The notes beneath the pieces were generated by a model. The model made no database searches. It saw only the letters and a program-made list of their open reading frames with translations, and was not told where the DNA came from. Below are positions 4,245-17,196 of a DNA stretch of 20,888 nucleotides, in pieces. Numbering within the stretch: position 1 is the stretch's first letter; the number at the start of each line of letters is the position of its first letter. The translations under genes were made by a program, and so were the position numbers. The stretch is from a virus: IMG/VR virus record IMGVR_UViG_3300030102_006128, positions 1 through 20,888 of that record; one strand, 5' to 3'.

Positions 4245-4275
4245 TTTGTAATGATATTTTCTTTTACTTTTGGTT

Positions 4276-4662
4276 ATGTCAGAAAACGTACCATCCAATC
4301 CAAGACTATACAGCAGAGTAAAATCTGATGCTAAACGTAAGTTTAAAATATTTCCTAGTGCATACGCATCAGCCTATATCGTTAGAGAATATAAAAAAAG
4401 AGGCGGAACATACACAGGAAGAAAGAGCAAAAGAAAAGGCATCGCTCGATGGATGCGTGAAAAATGGACTACTCAAGATGGCTCTCCTTGTGGGTCAAAG
4501 AAGTTCAAGGGTGTAAAAAAGTGTCGGCCTACTGTTCGTATTAGCAAACAAACACCTGTTACATGGCAAGAACTCAAGGCAAAACGCAAGGCAACTGAGG
4601 CTGTGAGAGAAAAACAGCGTGTAGGAATGGGTAAACGTGCCAAAGCCATTAGGAGAGACTAG
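4276..4662 (+). CDS. Small basic protein in reverse orientation inside the packaging operon
   Basis: A 128-residue protein (MSENVPSNPRLYSR...), about a third Lys/Arg. The core KSDAKRKFKIFPSAYASAYI, then VREYKKRGGTY, resembles a widespread small viral family ('AK.KF.V.PSAYAN....Y...GG'; possibly DUF5872) of unknown function. Two cysteines lie in GSPCGSKKFKGVKKCRP. The ATG at 4276 is preferred to the TTG six bases earlier. It is the only rightward gene between 1 and 12434 and converges on the terminase nuclease gene with a 4-bp stop overlap, so its transcript is antisense to the leftward operon unless timed differently. Confidence 0.7.
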   Translation: MSENVPSNPRLYSRVKSDAKRKFKIFPSAYASAYIVREYKKRGGTYTGRKSKRKGIARWMREKWTTQDGSPCGSKKFKGVKKCRPTVRISKQTPVTWQELKAKRKATEAVREKQRVGMGKRAKAIRRD

Positions 4663-7902: not shown

Positions 7903-8158
7903 TGTACACCTTTTTTATCCGATTTACAAAAAGGTACCTCAAACCATCTGATTTTACAAATATTTTGTAATGGGTAAAAACTTTTTAAAAAAAAATTGAC
8001 AGCTATTGGTAAAAATTTAGTTTTTGCGGCAGGGAGGGTAATCAGCATGCTACGGCGAAAATTTTAAGGCCTGCACCCCTGTCAGATAGCCAGAGACGGC
8101 CCAAAAATCCCCCCAGCGCCATGCAGGCGGCGCCAGAGGTGTAAAGGGTTGGCAGAAA
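7903..8158. other. Intergenic region between accessory module and packaging operon
   Basis: This 256-bp stretch holds no convincing gene. Its left part (7921-8020) is very AT-rich with long A-runs and two degenerate copies of the window's repeat. The right part (8030-8158) is GC-rich, with a GCGCC/GGCGC inverted repeat at 8116-8120 and 8129-8133. On the minus strand that repeat is followed by G6-A-T5, a weak terminator candidate for the genes ending at 8159. The promoter for the packaging operon should lie here; TTTACC, 16 bp, TAAAAT on the minus strand is a weak match. Confidence 0.5.
7970..8018 (+). repeat. Two degenerate copies of the ATGGGTRRAAATCC repeat
   Basis: ATGGGTAAAAACT at 7970-7982 matches the consensus for ten bases, and ATTGGTAAAAATTT around 8005-8018 is a weaker copy. 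They are in the same orientation as the arrays at 9619-9741 and 11797-11922 and also lie at the downstream end of a leftward module. A third related string, AAAAATCCCCCC at 8104-8115, shares only the right half. Confidence 0.5.
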
Positions 8159-8407
8159 TTAGAGCCCTGCAATGCCCAGAACCTGAGAGCGAGCCCACGC
8201 CACCTGATCAGCTGTTGGGCTAGGGTTGCCAAAGTGCAGCGCTGCCAGCAATACCAGCACCTCAGATAAGTAAGCTACCTGCTCATATTCAGAGGGCCGC
8301 TTGCTGTGGGTTCTGCTGATTCTGCTCTGGCTAAAGTGAAGGTTAATCTCTGCTTCAGTCTGTGATAATGGGCCCAGCACTCCGAATCTCTCCAGATATA
8401 GGGCCAT
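8159..8407 (-). CDS. Hypothetical 82-aa protein, last gene of four-gene module
   Basis: Starts MALYLERFGVLGPLSQTEAE and is mainly helical, with a hydrophobic helix SEVLVLLAALHFGN in the middle. No family is recognised. The chosen ATG (8407) overlaps the previous stop as TAATG and has GGGAG eight bases upstream. An in-frame ATG at 8422 adds five residues and is the alternative. Base composition is clearly richer in G+C than the packaging genes to the left. An overlapping Trp/Pro-rich frame reaching 8050 was not accepted as a gene. Confidence 0.55.
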   Translation of the reverse strand: MALYLERFGVLGPLSQTEAEINLHFSQSRISRTHSKRPSEYEQVAYLSEVLVLLAALHFGNPSPTADQVAWARSQVLGIAGL

Positions 8408-8799
8408 TAAATTAACTCCCATGTCTCACCCCCTATCTCAGTATAGGCACTCTTTAAGTGCTTCAGGTTCTCAGGTACTATCTGCCATTCAAGGCCTGCC
8501 AGCTGAACCAGTTCTTTAGAGATACTAAGCACCTTTCCTCTGTTCTGATTCAGTACGCACTGCTGGCCGAAACTGTCCAGAGCTAGAGAAATTACTAGCT
8601 GCCTTTCTGCCTCATCTCTATATCTCACCAGATAGCAGCGTTCCTGCGTTCCCTCCCACATTCCAATGCCAGCAGTATATCTGAGGTTTAAATCTTGCAG
8701 GCACTGCTCCAGATTTAGAGAGCGCTTCAGGTTCTCAGTAAAGGAGAGCCCAGCGAGCTCTCCAGATATTAAAAGGAAGTCTGCTTTTATGTTATTCAT
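8407..8799 (-). CDS. Hypothetical 130-aa protein
   Basis: Starts MNNIKADFLLISGELAGLSF; the ATG at 8799 overlaps the previous gene's stop and follows a strong SD (GGAGG, seven bases away), so longer readings to 8838 are rejected. It is a mixed alpha/beta protein with a strand-rich middle (TAGIGMWEGTQERCYLVRYR, then EAERQLVISLALDSF) and a C-terminal LVQLAGLEWQIVPENLKHLK. No catalytic motif is visible and the family is not recognised. It lies in the GC-richer accessory module and is translationally coupled on both sides. Confidence 0.6.
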   Translation of the reverse strand: MNNIKADFLLISGELAGLSFTENLKRSLNLEQCLQDLNLRYTAGIGMWEGTQERCYLVRYRDEAERQLVISLALDSFGQQCVLNQNRGKVLSISKELVQLAGLEWQIVPENLKHLKSAYTEIGGETWELI

Positions 8800-9118
8800 A
8801 GCTGGCCTCCTGTACATAGGTATCAACCAAGTGCTCATATAGTACAGGTACTAAACCGCCCTCCAGTTCTGGACTGTCCTGCACTCCAGATAGGAATACT
8901 TTACTCATATGGCTCAGGGCTTGGTAAAGATTGCTGCGGCGCCCTTCATAATAAGCAGCTGCAAAGTGATAGACTGCCAGCGCTATGTCTAGCCTTGCCT
9001 CCTCTCTGACATCAGGATACTGCAGGTAGTCGTAAAGGGTTTTAATCATTTCTGAGAGCATAGGGTCAGCTACTGAGTAGCTGCCCTGTGTGATGTCTGA
9101 TGTTATATTGATAGTCAT
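8792..9118 (-). CDS. Hypothetical 108-aa helical protein
   Basis: Reads MTINITSDITQGSYSVADPM and continues as a helical, acidic protein with aromatic-rich helices (ARLDIALAVYHFAAAYYEGR, then RSNLYQALSHMSKVFLSG). ATG at 9118 follows the previous stop by one base and has a GAGGAG SD. The repeated helix pattern with A/Y/L resembles TPR-like or four-helix bundles, but no family is recognised. It is part of the four-gene module 9449-8159. Confidence 0.6.
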   Translation of the reverse strand: MTINITSDITQGSYSVADPMLSEMIKTLYDYLQYPDVREEARLDIALAVYHFAAAYYEGRRSNLYQALSHMSKVFLSGVQDSPELEGGLVPVLYEHLVDTYVQEASYE

Positions 9119-9553: not shown

Positions 9554-9593
9554 GGCCAGCTGGCCAGCCCCAGCCCCAGCCCCAGCCCCAGCC
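9554..9593 (-). repeat. G-quadruplex-type hexamer repeat with adjacent 12-bp palindrome
   Basis: CCCCAG is repeated four times without change at 9568-9591. On the minus strand this is four GGGG runs separated by CT, a textbook G-quadruplex motif. Directly beside it is GGCCAGCTGGCC (9554-9565), a perfect palindrome. The minus strand is the coding strand of the genes starting at 9449. The tract is out of character in an AT-rich phage. It could act as a transcription or replication roadblock, or simply be a slipped-strand expansion. Confidence 0.75.
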
Positions 9594-9618: not shown

Positions 9619-9741
9619 ATGGGTGGAAATCCCTTTAGGATGGGTAGAAATCTCTCTACGATGGGTGGAAATCCCCAGCGCAAAAAAAAAGGACTCCTAC
9701 CTATCATGGGTAGAAATCCTTTTGAAATGGGTAGAAATCCC
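9619..9741 (+). repeat. Array of five ATGGGTRGAAATCYC direct repeats (iteron-like)
   Basis: Copies begin at 9619, 9640, 9661, 9706 and 9727. Distances are 21, 21, 45 and 21 bp, so neighbours lie two helical turns apart with one position skipped. The unit is ATGGGTRGAAATCYC, an imperfect dyad GGG-N7-CCC. The last copy ends at 9741, touching the stop codon (9743) of the putative HTH gene on the minus strand. The same motif recurs at 11797-11922. Phasing and position suggest binding sites for a protein such as an initiator or repressor. Confidence 0.85.
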
Positions 9742-9742
9742 T

Positions 9743-10117
9743 TTAATAGTGCCAGCAGGCATAGTCCCATATACCTCTATAGTAGCACCACTCCAGATAT
9801 TCTTGGTCTGATATATGAGGGTCGCTATAGTCAAGACTTCGTAACCAGTCTATAAGGTCTTTCTCATGTGCGAAACACTGTCCAAACTTTGTCTCAAAAC
9901 CTTGAGTCATTCTCTGTCCAGTCTTGCTGCATACTCTAGTATGAGTATCCATGTACTCTTTAAGTCGTCTATATTCTGAAGCCCACGTTCTGTCCATGAA
10001 GTCCTCATCAGGAAACGTCTTCATATATGACAACCTATTTTCCTTGATTCCAGTATCTTCTGAGATTTGCTTCTGTGAGAAGTCGTGGTCATCCTTTAAC
10101 ATACGAACTATGTTCAT
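9743..10117 (-). CDS. Putative HTH DNA-binding protein, last gene of six-gene operon
   Basis: A 124-residue protein. Residues about 13-34 (FSQKQISEDTGIKENRLSYM) look like a lambda Cro/CI-type helix-turn-helix; the rest is acidic and aromatic, with a Cys/Trp/Tyr-rich end (YLEWCYYRGIWDYACWHY). Two cysteines lie at the C-terminus. The ATG at 10117 overlaps the previous stop as ATGA and has a GGGGGG leader; an upstream ATG at 10129 would overlap more. The direct-repeat array starts two bases after its stop, so those repeats are a natural candidate for its binding site. It is not assigned to a named family. Confidence 0.6.
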   Translation of the reverse strand: MNIVRMLKDDHDFSQKQISEDTGIKENRLSYMKTFPDEDFMDRTWASEYRRLKEYMDTHTRVCSKTGQRMTQGFETKFGQCFAHEKDLIDWLRSLDYSDPHISDQEYLEWCYYRGIWDYACWHY

Positions 10118-10332
10118 GATACCCCCCATGATTTGCTGTTACTGATTATGTTGTCCCATGCTTCGGCCATGGTATCAATGGCATCTTGTGCCAGCTGAAA
10201 AGTAAGAGTCTCACTCAAAGACTTGTTCCATGCTGTAATAAACATCTTGTTTCCTACGACCTCATAGTCCATCTCCATGAAGTTCATATATGATATAGCT
10301 TTAGCTAGATTATCCATAGTATCAATATCCAT
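10114..10332 (-). CDS. Hypothetical 72-aa acidic protein
   Basis: Reads MDIDTMDNLAKAISYMNFME, then MDYEVVGNKMFITAW and a helical end. It is acidic and Met-rich, with no recognised family. Its start overlaps the upstream stop by 11 nt and its end overlaps the HTH gene as ATGA, so it is translated as part of the six-gene operon 11690-9743. Confidence 0.6.
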   Translation of the reverse strand: MDIDTMDNLAKAISYMNFMEMDYEVVGNKMFITAWNKSLSETLTFQLAQDAIDTMAEAWDNIISNSKSWGVS

Positions 10333-11796: not shown

Positions 11797-11922
11797 ATGG
11801 GTAAAAATCCCCAAAGTGGGGAACTAAAATCGTAACTGAGATGGGTGGAAATCCCCCTGAGATATGGGTAAAAATTCACTATGGGAATGGGTAAAAATCC
11901 TTTTGATATGGGTGAAAATCTC
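11797..11922 (+). repeat. Array of five ATGGGTRRAAATYCC direct repeats (iteron-like)
   Basis: Copies begin at 11797, 11841, 11864, 11887 and 11908, spaced 44, 23, 23 and 21 bp. In the 44-bp gap a decayed copy is visible near 11818 (GGGGAACTAAAATC). The array ends at 11922, immediately next to the stop codon (11923) of the initiator-like gene. Motif, orientation, copy number and the single double-length gap all match the array at 9619-9741. The neighbourhood of a replication-initiator-like gene makes an iteron role plausible. Confidence 0.85.
11803..11822 (-). terminator. Weak intrinsic terminator after the initiator-like gene
   Basis: On the minus strand TCCCC-ACTTT-GGGGA is followed by TTTTT, a 5-bp stem with a T-run, about 100 bases after the initiator-like gene's stop and before the promoter of the next operon. 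The stem uses part of one direct repeat (11797-11812). It is short, so efficiency is uncertain. Confidence 0.45.
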
Positions 11923-12354
11923 TCACATGATCTCACCTAAAACGATTTCCCTCCCCCTTCTTAAAGAAGAAACAGTATTATTATTATTTATATTAATATG
12001 TTTGACATTTCGATCAAGGGGGTCTTGACGCAAATCGCTAGGGTTCTTGCGTTTTCGATCAAGGGTTCTTGCGTTTTCAGTCAAGGGGTATATCTTTCTC
12101 TTTTGATTTCCATTCTCATCAATAGGATGATACTCTACTCTTACAAATCCAGCCTTCTTTAATGACTTGATCCACCTAGATATGGTTTCTGTCCTTGTAT
12201 TATATAGATGTGCAAAATAGGAATTAGTACTAAAACAGTATCCATGCTTACTAGATAGGGTTATAATTTCAGCGTACAGTATTTTTTCATTAGCGGTAAT
12301 CTTTTCACTGTACCTTACATCCGCACTTAGTATTACGTAGTAATTAGGTTTCAT
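11923..12354 (-). CDS. Replication-initiator-like winged-helix protein (HTH_36 type)
   Basis: A 143-residue protein starting MKPNYYVILSADVRYSEKIT. Residues about 5-91 form a winged helix typical of phage and plasmid replication initiators: ITANEKILYAEIITLSSKHG, the recognition region NSYFAHLYNTRTETISRWIK, then a wing VRVEYHPIDENGNQKRKIYP. The C-terminal tail (from 92) is basic, then Asn-rich (HININNNNTVSS). An upstream ATG at 12420 is open but the protein then starts with atypical sequence and would cross the promoter, so 12354 is chosen. The coding DNA contains short tandem repeats and an AT-rich run. A strong promoter lies upstream, and the gene diverges from the replication operon. A pure transcription regulator is the alternative. 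Confidence 0.7.
   Translation of the reverse strand: MKPNYYVILSADVRYSEKITANEKILYAEIITLSSKHGYCFSTNSYFAHLYNTRTETISRWIKSLKKAGFVRVEYHPIDENGNQKRKIYPLTENARTLDRKRKNPSDLRQDPLDRNVKHININNNNTVSSLRRGREIVLGEIM
11975..12090. other. Candidate replication origin inside the initiator-like gene
   Basis: Two near-identical tandem units of 22 bp (core AGGGTTCTTGCGTTTTC, then GATCA or AGTCA) lie at 12040-12061 and 12062-12083, with a third, diverged unit before them (about 12018-12039) and a partial one after. Next to them is an almost pure A/T stretch at 11975-12000. Repeats plus AT-rich DNA inside an initiator gene is the arrangement of phage lambda ori in gene O. Protein residues 93-118 and 119-128 are encoded by the two parts. 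Function is inferred. Confidence 0.5.
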
Positions 12355-14218: not shown

Positions 14219-14438
14219 GAATGAACTTGCAATATTGAAACTATTAAATGAGAACAAAAAAGCCACCTATGCTGAAATAGAACCTAAGATGGAACTGGAA
14301 AACCACGATAAATATTGGACTACATTTTCTACGATATGTAGTTTAATATCTTCAGGTGTAATCGTTTCTAATAACAAATATCCATCTGATTATTCTTTAA
14401 CATCGTATGGAAAGGTTAAGGTAAAAGAACTGTTATGA
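14211..14438 (+). CDS. Small winged-helix-like protein
   Basis: A 75-residue protein (MTKNELAILKLLNENKKATY...). It reads as a compact winged helix: helix 1 NELAILKLLNEN, helix 2 YAEIEPKME, recognition helix TFSTICSLISSG, and a wing SNNKYPSDYSLTSYGK. The start ATG at 14211 overlaps the previous stop; an ATG at 14199 adds four residues (MRRK) and is possible. The stop overlaps the helicase ATG as ATGA. It may regulate the operon or assist loading of the helicase; neither is shown. Confidence 0.65.
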   Translation: MTKNELAILKLLNENKKATYAEIEPKMELENHDKYWTTFSTICSLISSGVIVSNNKYPSDYSLTSYGKVKVKELL

Positions 14439-15685
14439 AGCGTAATGACATGATGCACTTGGAGGAAGTGCTGATTGGTACGCTAATATCTTATAGAGAA
14501 TTTAGAGACCTTATATTCAATACGTTAGATGCTACCTATTTTCACTACCTTCGACCTGTATATTTAGAGGCTTGCAGACAGCATGCAGAGGGAACAGTAT
14601 TCAATGAAGATACTCTGGCTGCTAAAATAGAGGGCATGAACATTGATGAGTTTTATGCACTCATGATGATGCACGTTGCATCTGAAGATGAGACTAGAGC
14701 ATATCTAAAAACTCTGAAAGATACTACTGATAAGAACAGATTAAGATATTCGCTAAAGCATGTCAGTGATGTAGCTAATAGTCCAACCACTACAATGGAC
14801 GATCTATTAGTAGAAATTGATAAACTCAATCAGACAGTAGATGACGCATCGCAAAAAATCGCTTTGACTCCATCTGAAATATTAGAGCGTGAAATGAATG
14901 AGCCTAAAAAAGAGAAGCTGATCACTGGTGTGCATAAATTAGATGATGGTCTACATAAAGATGTTGGACTCCATAGAGGTGATATAAATATTGTTTTAGC
15001 TGACTCTGGTCATGGTAAGACTCAATGGGCAACTTTTTTAGCAAGTAAACTTGCTCAACAAGGCTATCAAGGTCTGTGGTTTCAGATGGAAGACTATGAT
15101 GTCAATACTGCTAAACAGCTTGGCTTGATGGTTGGATACGAAGCTGATAACGTAAGGATCATTGATTCTGTAGATGATATAGACGAGATCAAACGTATGT
15201 GCAGGCTAAACAAAATGGATTATGGTCTTGACTTTGTAGTCATAGATTATATTCAAGAAGTATATGCTCAAGGCAGGTTTGATAGCAGGACGCTAGAAAT
15301 TCAATATGTAACTAAGGTTATGAAGGATATTGCTAAACAGCTCAATGTGTTGGTAATCGTTCCTAGTCAAGTTACTATAAACTCATTAAATAGGTCTGGT
15401 TGGAGCTTAACTCCAAAGTATAAAGACGCACAATGGGCACAGGCTATAAAGAACGTAGCTCATTGTATGACATCAGTGTTTAGACCAAACATGGTTCAGT
15501 CTTTAGTAACCACAGATCACGAAGGATACTTAGCTGTAAAAGGCAGAAAAGATGGTGAAATTTTTGACTATCAATCAGTCTTTGTAAAGCTAGTAAAAAC
15601 AAGAAGAGGCCAACTTTCTCACAATTTTATGCACATGATCCATAATGGAGACATGGGACTTGAAGTTGCTAAATCAAAGATTTGA
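14435..15685 (+). CDS. DnaB-type replicative helicase
   Basis: A 416-residue protein with the two-part structure of DnaB-family helicases: an N-terminal helical domain (LEEVLIGTLISYREFRDLIF, residues about 9-100), a linker, and a RecA-like domain. In it, GLHRGDINIVLADSGHGKTQ holds Walker A (ADSGHGKT, 189-196), LWFQMEDYD has the catalytic Glu (219), DFVVIDYIQEV has Walker B (about 266-271) with the DnaB-like 'DYIQ', and VLVIVPSQV matches motif H3. It unwinds DNA at the phage fork. It follows a small winged-helix gene with an ATGA overlap. No primase gene is seen in the window. Confidence 0.88.
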   Translation: MKRNDMMHLEEVLIGTLISYREFRDLIFNTLDATYFHYLRPVYLEACRQHAEGTVFNEDTLAAKIEGMNIDEFYALMMMHVASEDETRAYLKTLKDTTDKNRLRYSLKHVSDVANSPTTTMDDLLVEIDKLNQTVDDASQKIALTPSEILEREMNEPKKEKLITGVHKLDDGLHKDVGLHRGDINIVLADSGHGKTQWATFLASKLAQQGYQGLWFQMEDYDVNTAKQLGLMVGYEADNVRIIDSVDDIDEIKRMCRLNKMDYGLDFVVIDYIQEVYAQGRFDSRTLEIQYVTKVMKDIAKQLNVLVIVPSQVTINSLNRSGWSLTPKYKDAQWAQAIKNVAHCMTSVFRPNMVQSLVTTDHEGYLAVKGRKDGEIFDYQSVFVKLVKTRRGQLSHNFMHMIHNGDMGLEVAKSKI

Positions 15686-16851: not shown

Positions 16852-17196
16852 ATGATAGCAGAATATATTGTAAACGAAGTCTGCGATAGATTTCAGATAA
16901 CAAAAAAAGAACTAAGAAGTAGAAAAAGATATAAGCATTTAGTAGATGCAAGGCAGGCTTGCGCTTTTGCTTTAAGAAATCTGGATTGCACCTATAAATT
17001 TATAGGAGATGTAATAAATCGTGAGAGTCATACAACTATTATCCATATTTTAAAGAAAAGACACGATAATTCGCACGAGAATCAACGTATAGCTCATAGA
17101 ATAATAAAAGAATATAAGAGCATGGCATTGCCTAAGATCAGGCGGCAGAAGCTAAATATGGAAGAGTTTTTAGAGATGGTTCAACAAATTAACTAA
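16852..17196 (+). CDS. Stand-alone DnaA domain IV-like DNA-binding protein
   Basis: A 114-residue protein matching only the C-terminal DNA-binding domain of DnaA. It opens with a helix IVNEVCDRFQITKKELRSRK, continues VDARQACAFALRNLDCTYKF, then IGDVINRESHTTIIHILKKR (about 51-70), which corresponds to the DnaA signature 'GRDHTTV..A..K'. There is no AAA+ ATPase domain. A lone domain IV could bind host DnaA boxes and compete with DnaA, or direct phage replication or transcription to such sites. It has its own unit after a terminator; the leader is A-rich. Function beyond DnaA-box-like binding is inferred. Confidence 0.8.
   Translation: MIAEYIVNEVCDRFQITKKELRSRKRYKHLVDARQACAFALRNLDCTYKFIGDVINRESHTTIIHILKKRHDNSHENQRIAHRIIKEYKSMALPKIRRQKLNMEEFLEMVQQIN

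Follow-up and report, generated by a model that had tools for sequence, protein, structure and literature searches.

The initiator gene and its surroundings

The window, i.e., the whole stretch of DNA that we analysed, is the entire record (20,888 bases) of a bacterial virus known from environmental DNA only. The record has no end repeats; therefore, it is possibly a fragment. Leftward and rightward operons diverge at ~12.4 kb, and the first leftward gene encodes the initiator (Table 1). The rightward operon encodes a PDDEXK nuclease, a DnaB-like helicase and a protein with a DnaA C-terminal domain. A preliminary description of this DNA had placed a DnaB-type helicase gene in the divergent operon, and the profile matches of this gene agreed with that. 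The DnaA-like gene (16852-17196, plus strand) encodes 114 amino acids and contains the DnaA C-terminal DNA-binding domain only (1.2e-16); a gene annotated as DnaA (~160 aa) is also located near the initiator of Polaribacter phage P12002L. No helicase-loader gene was recognised in the record. Local G+C content rises to ~0.5 across small leftward genes at 8000-8900 and is ~0.38 in the rest of the record.

Table 1. Coordinates of the initiator gene, its repeats and related features in the window.
Feature	Coordinates	Strand	Basis or conservation
Initiator gene, 143 aa: winged helix (residues 1-92), origin-encoded linker (putative), short conserved C-terminal tail	11923..12354	-	Pfam, PHROG, AlphaFold
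Iteron 1, CCCTTGACTGAAAACGCAAGAA	12066..12087	-	L001 differs at two bases; no change in L002 and L003
Iteron 2, CCCTTGATCGAAAACGCAAGAA	12044..12065	-	L001 differs at one base; no change in L002 and L003
Iteron 3, diverged, CCCTAGCGATTTGCGTCAAGAC	12022..12043	-	L001 differs at one base; no change in L002 and L003
Iteron 4, diverged, CCCCTTGATCGAAATGTCAAAC	12000..12021	-	Identical in all three close relatives
Candidate DNA-unwinding element, AACATATTAATATAAATAATAATAATACTG	11973..12002	-	Least stable 26-mer, longest A/T run
EIVLGEIM, conserved peptide at the C-terminus of the short-form initiator	11926..11949	-	Same motif in L001-L003, L089 and L101
Second array of repeats: five ATGGGTNNAAATC sites, of which one has a single mismatch, starting 2 nt after the initiator stop	11797..11920	+	Conserved in L001, L007, L008 and L009
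Matching array of five ATGGGTNNAAATC sites that closely follows the stop of gene 9743-10129	9619..9739	+	Repeat scan
DnaB-like replicative helicase, divergent operon	14435..15685	+	Pfam DnaB_C 2.5e-18; phrog_19 3.5e-37

Four iterons adjoin an A/T element

Four contiguous 22-bp units, two near-perfect and two diverged, ran along the minus strand from 12087 to 12000. Two near-perfect tandem units and a diverged third had been described previously. The near-perfect pair was recovered as a direct repeat (12040-12061 and 12062-12083, 91% identical, TRF score of 82); the repetition did continue beyond it, but as two more units (12043-12022 and 12021-12000) rather than one. Directly after the four units on the minus strand lay the A/T run that had been noted beside the repeats. 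It was pure A/T over 24 bp (11976-11999) and was the only A/T run of at least 18 bp in the 20,888 bases. Unwinding energy, which had been proposed as a check, gave the same position: the 26-mer starting at 11974, beside the repeats, had the lowest nearest-neighbour duplex stability among all 26-mers of the record. Inverted symmetry within the iteron units, as a dimer might need, was not significant for the units of the window. No DnaA box was found in the vicinity of the A/T element; an exact TTWTNCACA occurs no closer than 12217, inside the initiator gene.

We also considered GC skew as evidence for an origin and rejected it. The cumulative skew had its minimum near 12 kb; however, the sign of the skew followed gene orientation across the record, including genes that run against the presumed fork direction (the plus-strand gene 4270-4662 and the minus-strand genes beyond 17.8 kb). 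Coding-strand skew was equal for minus-strand genes on the left (0.149) and plus-strand genes on the right (0.147). Since the skew follows gene direction, it is uninformative on the fork and provides no independent support for an origin.

The repeated segment is constrained at the DNA level

The lag-22 score of the initiator gene was 18, which was reached by none of 2000 synonymous-codon shuffles (maximum of 11) and by none of 1000 codon-order shuffles. Since 22 is not divisible by 3, successive copies are read in shifted frames and encode different peptides; therefore, this is not a peptide repeat. We then compared synonymous variation among four close relatives at amino-acid-invariant codons only. 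Of the 31 such codons between codons 92 and 126, 1 varied, compared with 41 of the 90 remaining ones (Fisher P = 5e-6). As codons 127-142, which are also conserved (1/11), were counted in the latter class, the contrast is larger against the winged-helix part alone (40/79).

Such a constraint could reflect RNA or single-strand structure in the initiator transcript, e.g., for translational control, or a small antisense gene. None of 200 dinucleotide shuffles folded as well as the sense strand at 11970-12095 (z of -4.0); however, repeated units with complementary segments by themselves raise fold scores, and the segment matched no Rfam family. The close relatives are nearly identical across the segment, and pairing therefore receives no backing from covariation. 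On the antisense strand, one reading frame spans the segment and stays open for ~66 codons between stops in the window. It is truncated by a stop codon in L002, its product varies outside the iterons, and in the more distant cousins L089 and L101 the product is unrelated. Thus, neither its length nor its product is conserved, and the constraint is unlikely to stem from an overlapping gene. Furthermore, the repeat periods of 22-24 nt observed across phages fit two turns of DNA. In either form, we regard this explanation as highly improbable compared with an origin embedded in the initiator gene.

Homologous initiators carry repeats at the same place

The most similar initiators among named phages belong to phages with hosts in Bacillota, Fusobacteria and marine Bacteroidota. 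We examined nine of them, from three Staphylococcus phages and from phages of Cellulophaga, Fusobacterium, Enterococcus, Polaribacter, Lactobacillus and Acetoanaerobium. In all nine, tandem repeats of ~21-25 bp directly followed the winged helix and were themselves followed by A/T-rich DNA, which was often AATAATACAAGT-like and was least pure in Lactobacillus phage AB1.

We collected further homologues by searching viral contigs and bacterial genomes with profiles. The preliminary description had singled out homologous genes lacking repeats at this place as evidence against its reading; besides the nine reference phages, all of which have them, 64 of 151 further homologues showed no repeat above the threshold used. 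Tandem Repeats Finder reported a period of 19-27 in the other 87, compared with 13, 17 and 21 homologues after synonymous shuffling, and periods of 22-24 dominated. Counted by distinct winged helices, 75 of 122 had a repeat. Using a stricter ungapped score, the repeat exceeded all 60 shuffles in 61 of 153 homologues, 60 of which had a period of 22, 23 or 24, and the A/T maximum lay near the far end of the repeat in 50; as the homologue sets hold related sequences, all these counts are non-independent trials. The in-gene repeat layout is therefore common among HTH_36 homologues but, at the threshold used, not demonstrably universal.

The close relatives L001-L003 have initiators 89-94% identical to that of the window. 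L089 and L101 are more distant, with 59-60% identity in the divergent nuclease gene and 73% in the next gene. Both kept three C-rich units and an A/T element, while the unit sequence was changed to CCCCTTCGTAAAAATACGA, as expected if the site and the DNA-binding domain evolve together. In both cousins, a perfect DnaA box (TGTGGATAA) is located ~10 nt after the initiator stop, where the window has its ATGGGT array.

The protein is a short-form HTH_36 initiator

The initiator matched Pfam HTH_36 at residues 19-71 (1.7e-9; 37.8 bits against a cut-off of 25). Its best PHROG matches were replication initiation families (phrog_19658, 186, 270 and 428; 7e-21 to 3e-14), and matches to lambda-O-like families were weaker (phrog_678, 1e-8; phrog_391, 8e-4). 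AlphaFold predicted residues ~1-92, the winged helix, with confidence, and confidence was low from residue ~95 to 143. The earlier proposal that the DNA-binding domain is encoded upstream and that the repeats encode a linker holds, in line with the HTH_36 match and the low confidence across the repeats.

A fold search with the predicted structure placed 5kbj, 4pql and 4pt7 in the top ten (E of 5e-3 to 9e-3). From their entry titles and PMC5703833, we take these to be N-domains of RepA_N plasmid initiators. The fold matches were weak (none at E ≤ 0.001) and most were general winged-helix regulators, winged helices being widespread. The initiator had no Pfam match to a RepA_N domain at E ≤ 0.1, and a PDB sequence search returned marginal winged-helix matches only. 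By descent, then, the protein is best classed from its family matches as a short-form HTH_36 phage initiator, neither an orthologue of lambda O nor a member of RepA_N. The label of a lambda-like origin given in the preliminary description holds for the layout and the proposed mechanism but does not extend to descent.

No C-domain family was matched in the 143 residues, and the protein ends ~20 residues past the A/T element. Homologues have a median length of 231 aa, and most run ~100 residues further with differing C-domains. A C-terminal region after the linker is common in HTH_36 initiators without being strictly defining, as several other homologues are short. Judged by these sequences, the missing C-domain is a variant feature and no bar to membership among HTH_36 phage initiators. 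The short form ends in a conserved tail, E-I-[IV]-L-G-[EK]-I-[IM]-stop, whose codons differ synonymously from one subgroup to another. In the scan of homologues, this tail turned up only in the window, L001-L003, L089 and L101.

Winged-helix proteins are usually regulators, as in most of the fold matches above, and the repeats might accordingly be an in-gene operator for this protein or for another regulator of the replication genes, with replication starting elsewhere. The constraint at the DNA level would look alike in that case. However, the site lies ~270 nt inside the gene and ~350 bp from the start of the divergent gene, rather than at a promoter. Moreover, the repeats are coupled to the A/T stretch of lowest stability in the record, a coupling that recurs in homologues, and the best family matches of the protein are replication initiation proteins. 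An operator function in place of an origin is, in our estimation, very unlikely.

Two ATGGGT arrays lie outside the initiator gene

ATGGGTNNAAATC was found in ten copies in the record, compared with 0.5 expected at up to 1 mismatch. The copies form exactly two arrays of five in one orientation, each 2-3 nt after the stop of a leftward gene. L001, L007, L008 and L009 have arrays in the same two places, the spacing being different in L008 and L009. A three-site ATGGGT pattern was not found in bacterial genomes, and phage records gave nothing convincing. We rejected a structured RNA at the array, as its fold z was 0.6. Five perfect CCAGCC copies (9564-9593) stand directly before the array at 9619. 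The product of gene 9743-10129 (minus strand) is a small protein with an HTH-like N-terminus and a very weak HipB antitoxin-like score (E of 0.078). As its N-terminus is HTH-like and its gene ends directly before an array, this product is a candidate for the array binder. We would guess that the arrays form an operator cluster.

The array next to the initiator may or may not be part of the origin. A stronger version would make the ATGGGTRRAAATC array (11797-11920), or its twin at 9619-9739, the true origin and the in-gene repeats a site for copy control or partition. The array does abut the initiator stop codon, its spacing is 21-23 bp in part and the two-place layout is conserved in close relatives; however, this spacing is lost in L008 and L009 (34 and 27 nt; 27 and 17 nt), and the A/T element touches the in-gene repeats rather than the array. 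In addition, the motif was found only in the close clade, and L089 and L101 keep the in-gene repeats without the array. We therefore regard an origin at either array instead of the in-gene repeats as exceedingly improbable.

Comparison with known in-gene origins

We found no paper on the present phage group, and for the in-gene layout the literature provided classical examples only. In lambda O, the DNA-binding domain is encoded upstream and the origin encodes the linker. Midway along initiator gene O, the lambda origin combines four iterons with an A/T-rich tract (PMC7466680). The window shares with lambda and lambdoid phages four iterons and an A/T tract inside the initiator gene, the upstream DNA-binding domain and the origin-encoded linker. 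In contrast, its initiator is of the HTH_36 type, scores weakly against lambda-O-like families and has no C-terminal domain, and the phage encodes its own DnaB-type helicase, with no P-like loader recognised.

In Bacillus phage SPP1, oriL lies within gene 38 and contains direct repeats and an A/T-rich element, and the phage encodes the DnaB-type helicase gp40 (PMC6316719). Repeats and an A/T element within the initiator gene and a phage-encoded DnaB-type helicase are therefore common to both phages, gp38 being likened by layout, from its description. However, SPP1 has a separate loader, gp39, whereas none was recognised in the window, and its second origin, oriR, ~13 kb away, is bound by the same protein, whereas the second array of the window differs in sequence.

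In the RepA_N gene rep of pSK41, the origin is central, with four Rep boxes, and the central domain of the protein is an origin-encoded linker (PMC5703833). The likeness to the window comprises four repeats central in the gene, the linker encoded by them and a winged-helix-type N-domain, the last through the weak matches to 5kbj, 4pql and 4pt7. pSK41 Rep differs in its structured DnaD-like C-domain, where the window's protein has ~20 residues past the A/T element. Further parallels were the HTH_36 initiators of Staphylococcus phages 77 and SAP3, Cellulophaga phage phi39:1 and Fusobacterium phage Funu2. In these genes, a homologous winged helix is followed at the corresponding position by tandem repeats of 21-25 bp and by A/T-rich DNA. 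Unlike the window, they have C-terminal extensions, with Phg_2220_C in 77, DnaB_2 in SAP3 and no recognised domain in phi39:1 and Funu2.

Proposed mechanism and significance

The shuffles, the synonymous constraint, the adjacent A/T element and the layout of the homologues support a lambda-like layout, and the sequence evidence indicates that a replication origin is very probably embedded in the initiator gene. By analogy with lambda, SPP1 and pSK41, we infer how it may act. The winged-helix initiator, encoded by the first two thirds of the gene, would bind the four 22-bp iterons (12000-12087), whose spacing corresponds to two helical turns. The resulting nucleoprotein complex would melt the adjacent A/T element, at which the DnaB-type helicase of the phage would be loaded, leading to theta replication. 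We consider it highly likely that this is the in-gene origin of a tailed phage. Helicase loading is the least certain step of this mechanism, because the C-terminal domain seen in related initiators is missing here and a loader gene was not recognised. A role of the terminal peptide in loading is a guess. Accounting for the short form by a minimal module, in which a winged helix and an origin-encoded disordered linker are joined to a peptide of ~8-10 residues that replaces the helicase-loading C-domain, possibly with the ATGGGTRRAAATC array as part of a bipartite origin, seems to us rather doubtful.

The in-gene origin layout has long been known from lambda, SPP1 and some plasmids. Distinctive here are the absence of the usual C-terminal domain, the conserved tail and a second repeat array directly after the stop codon. 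The analysis assigns, with good support, an origin to a group of uncultivated phages. As in-gene iterons of 22-24 bp are common across ~150 HTH_36 homologues, they offer a simple route to finding origins in metagenomic phages. Finally, the short-form initiator, with its conserved terminal peptide, would allow a test of how small an initiator can be.
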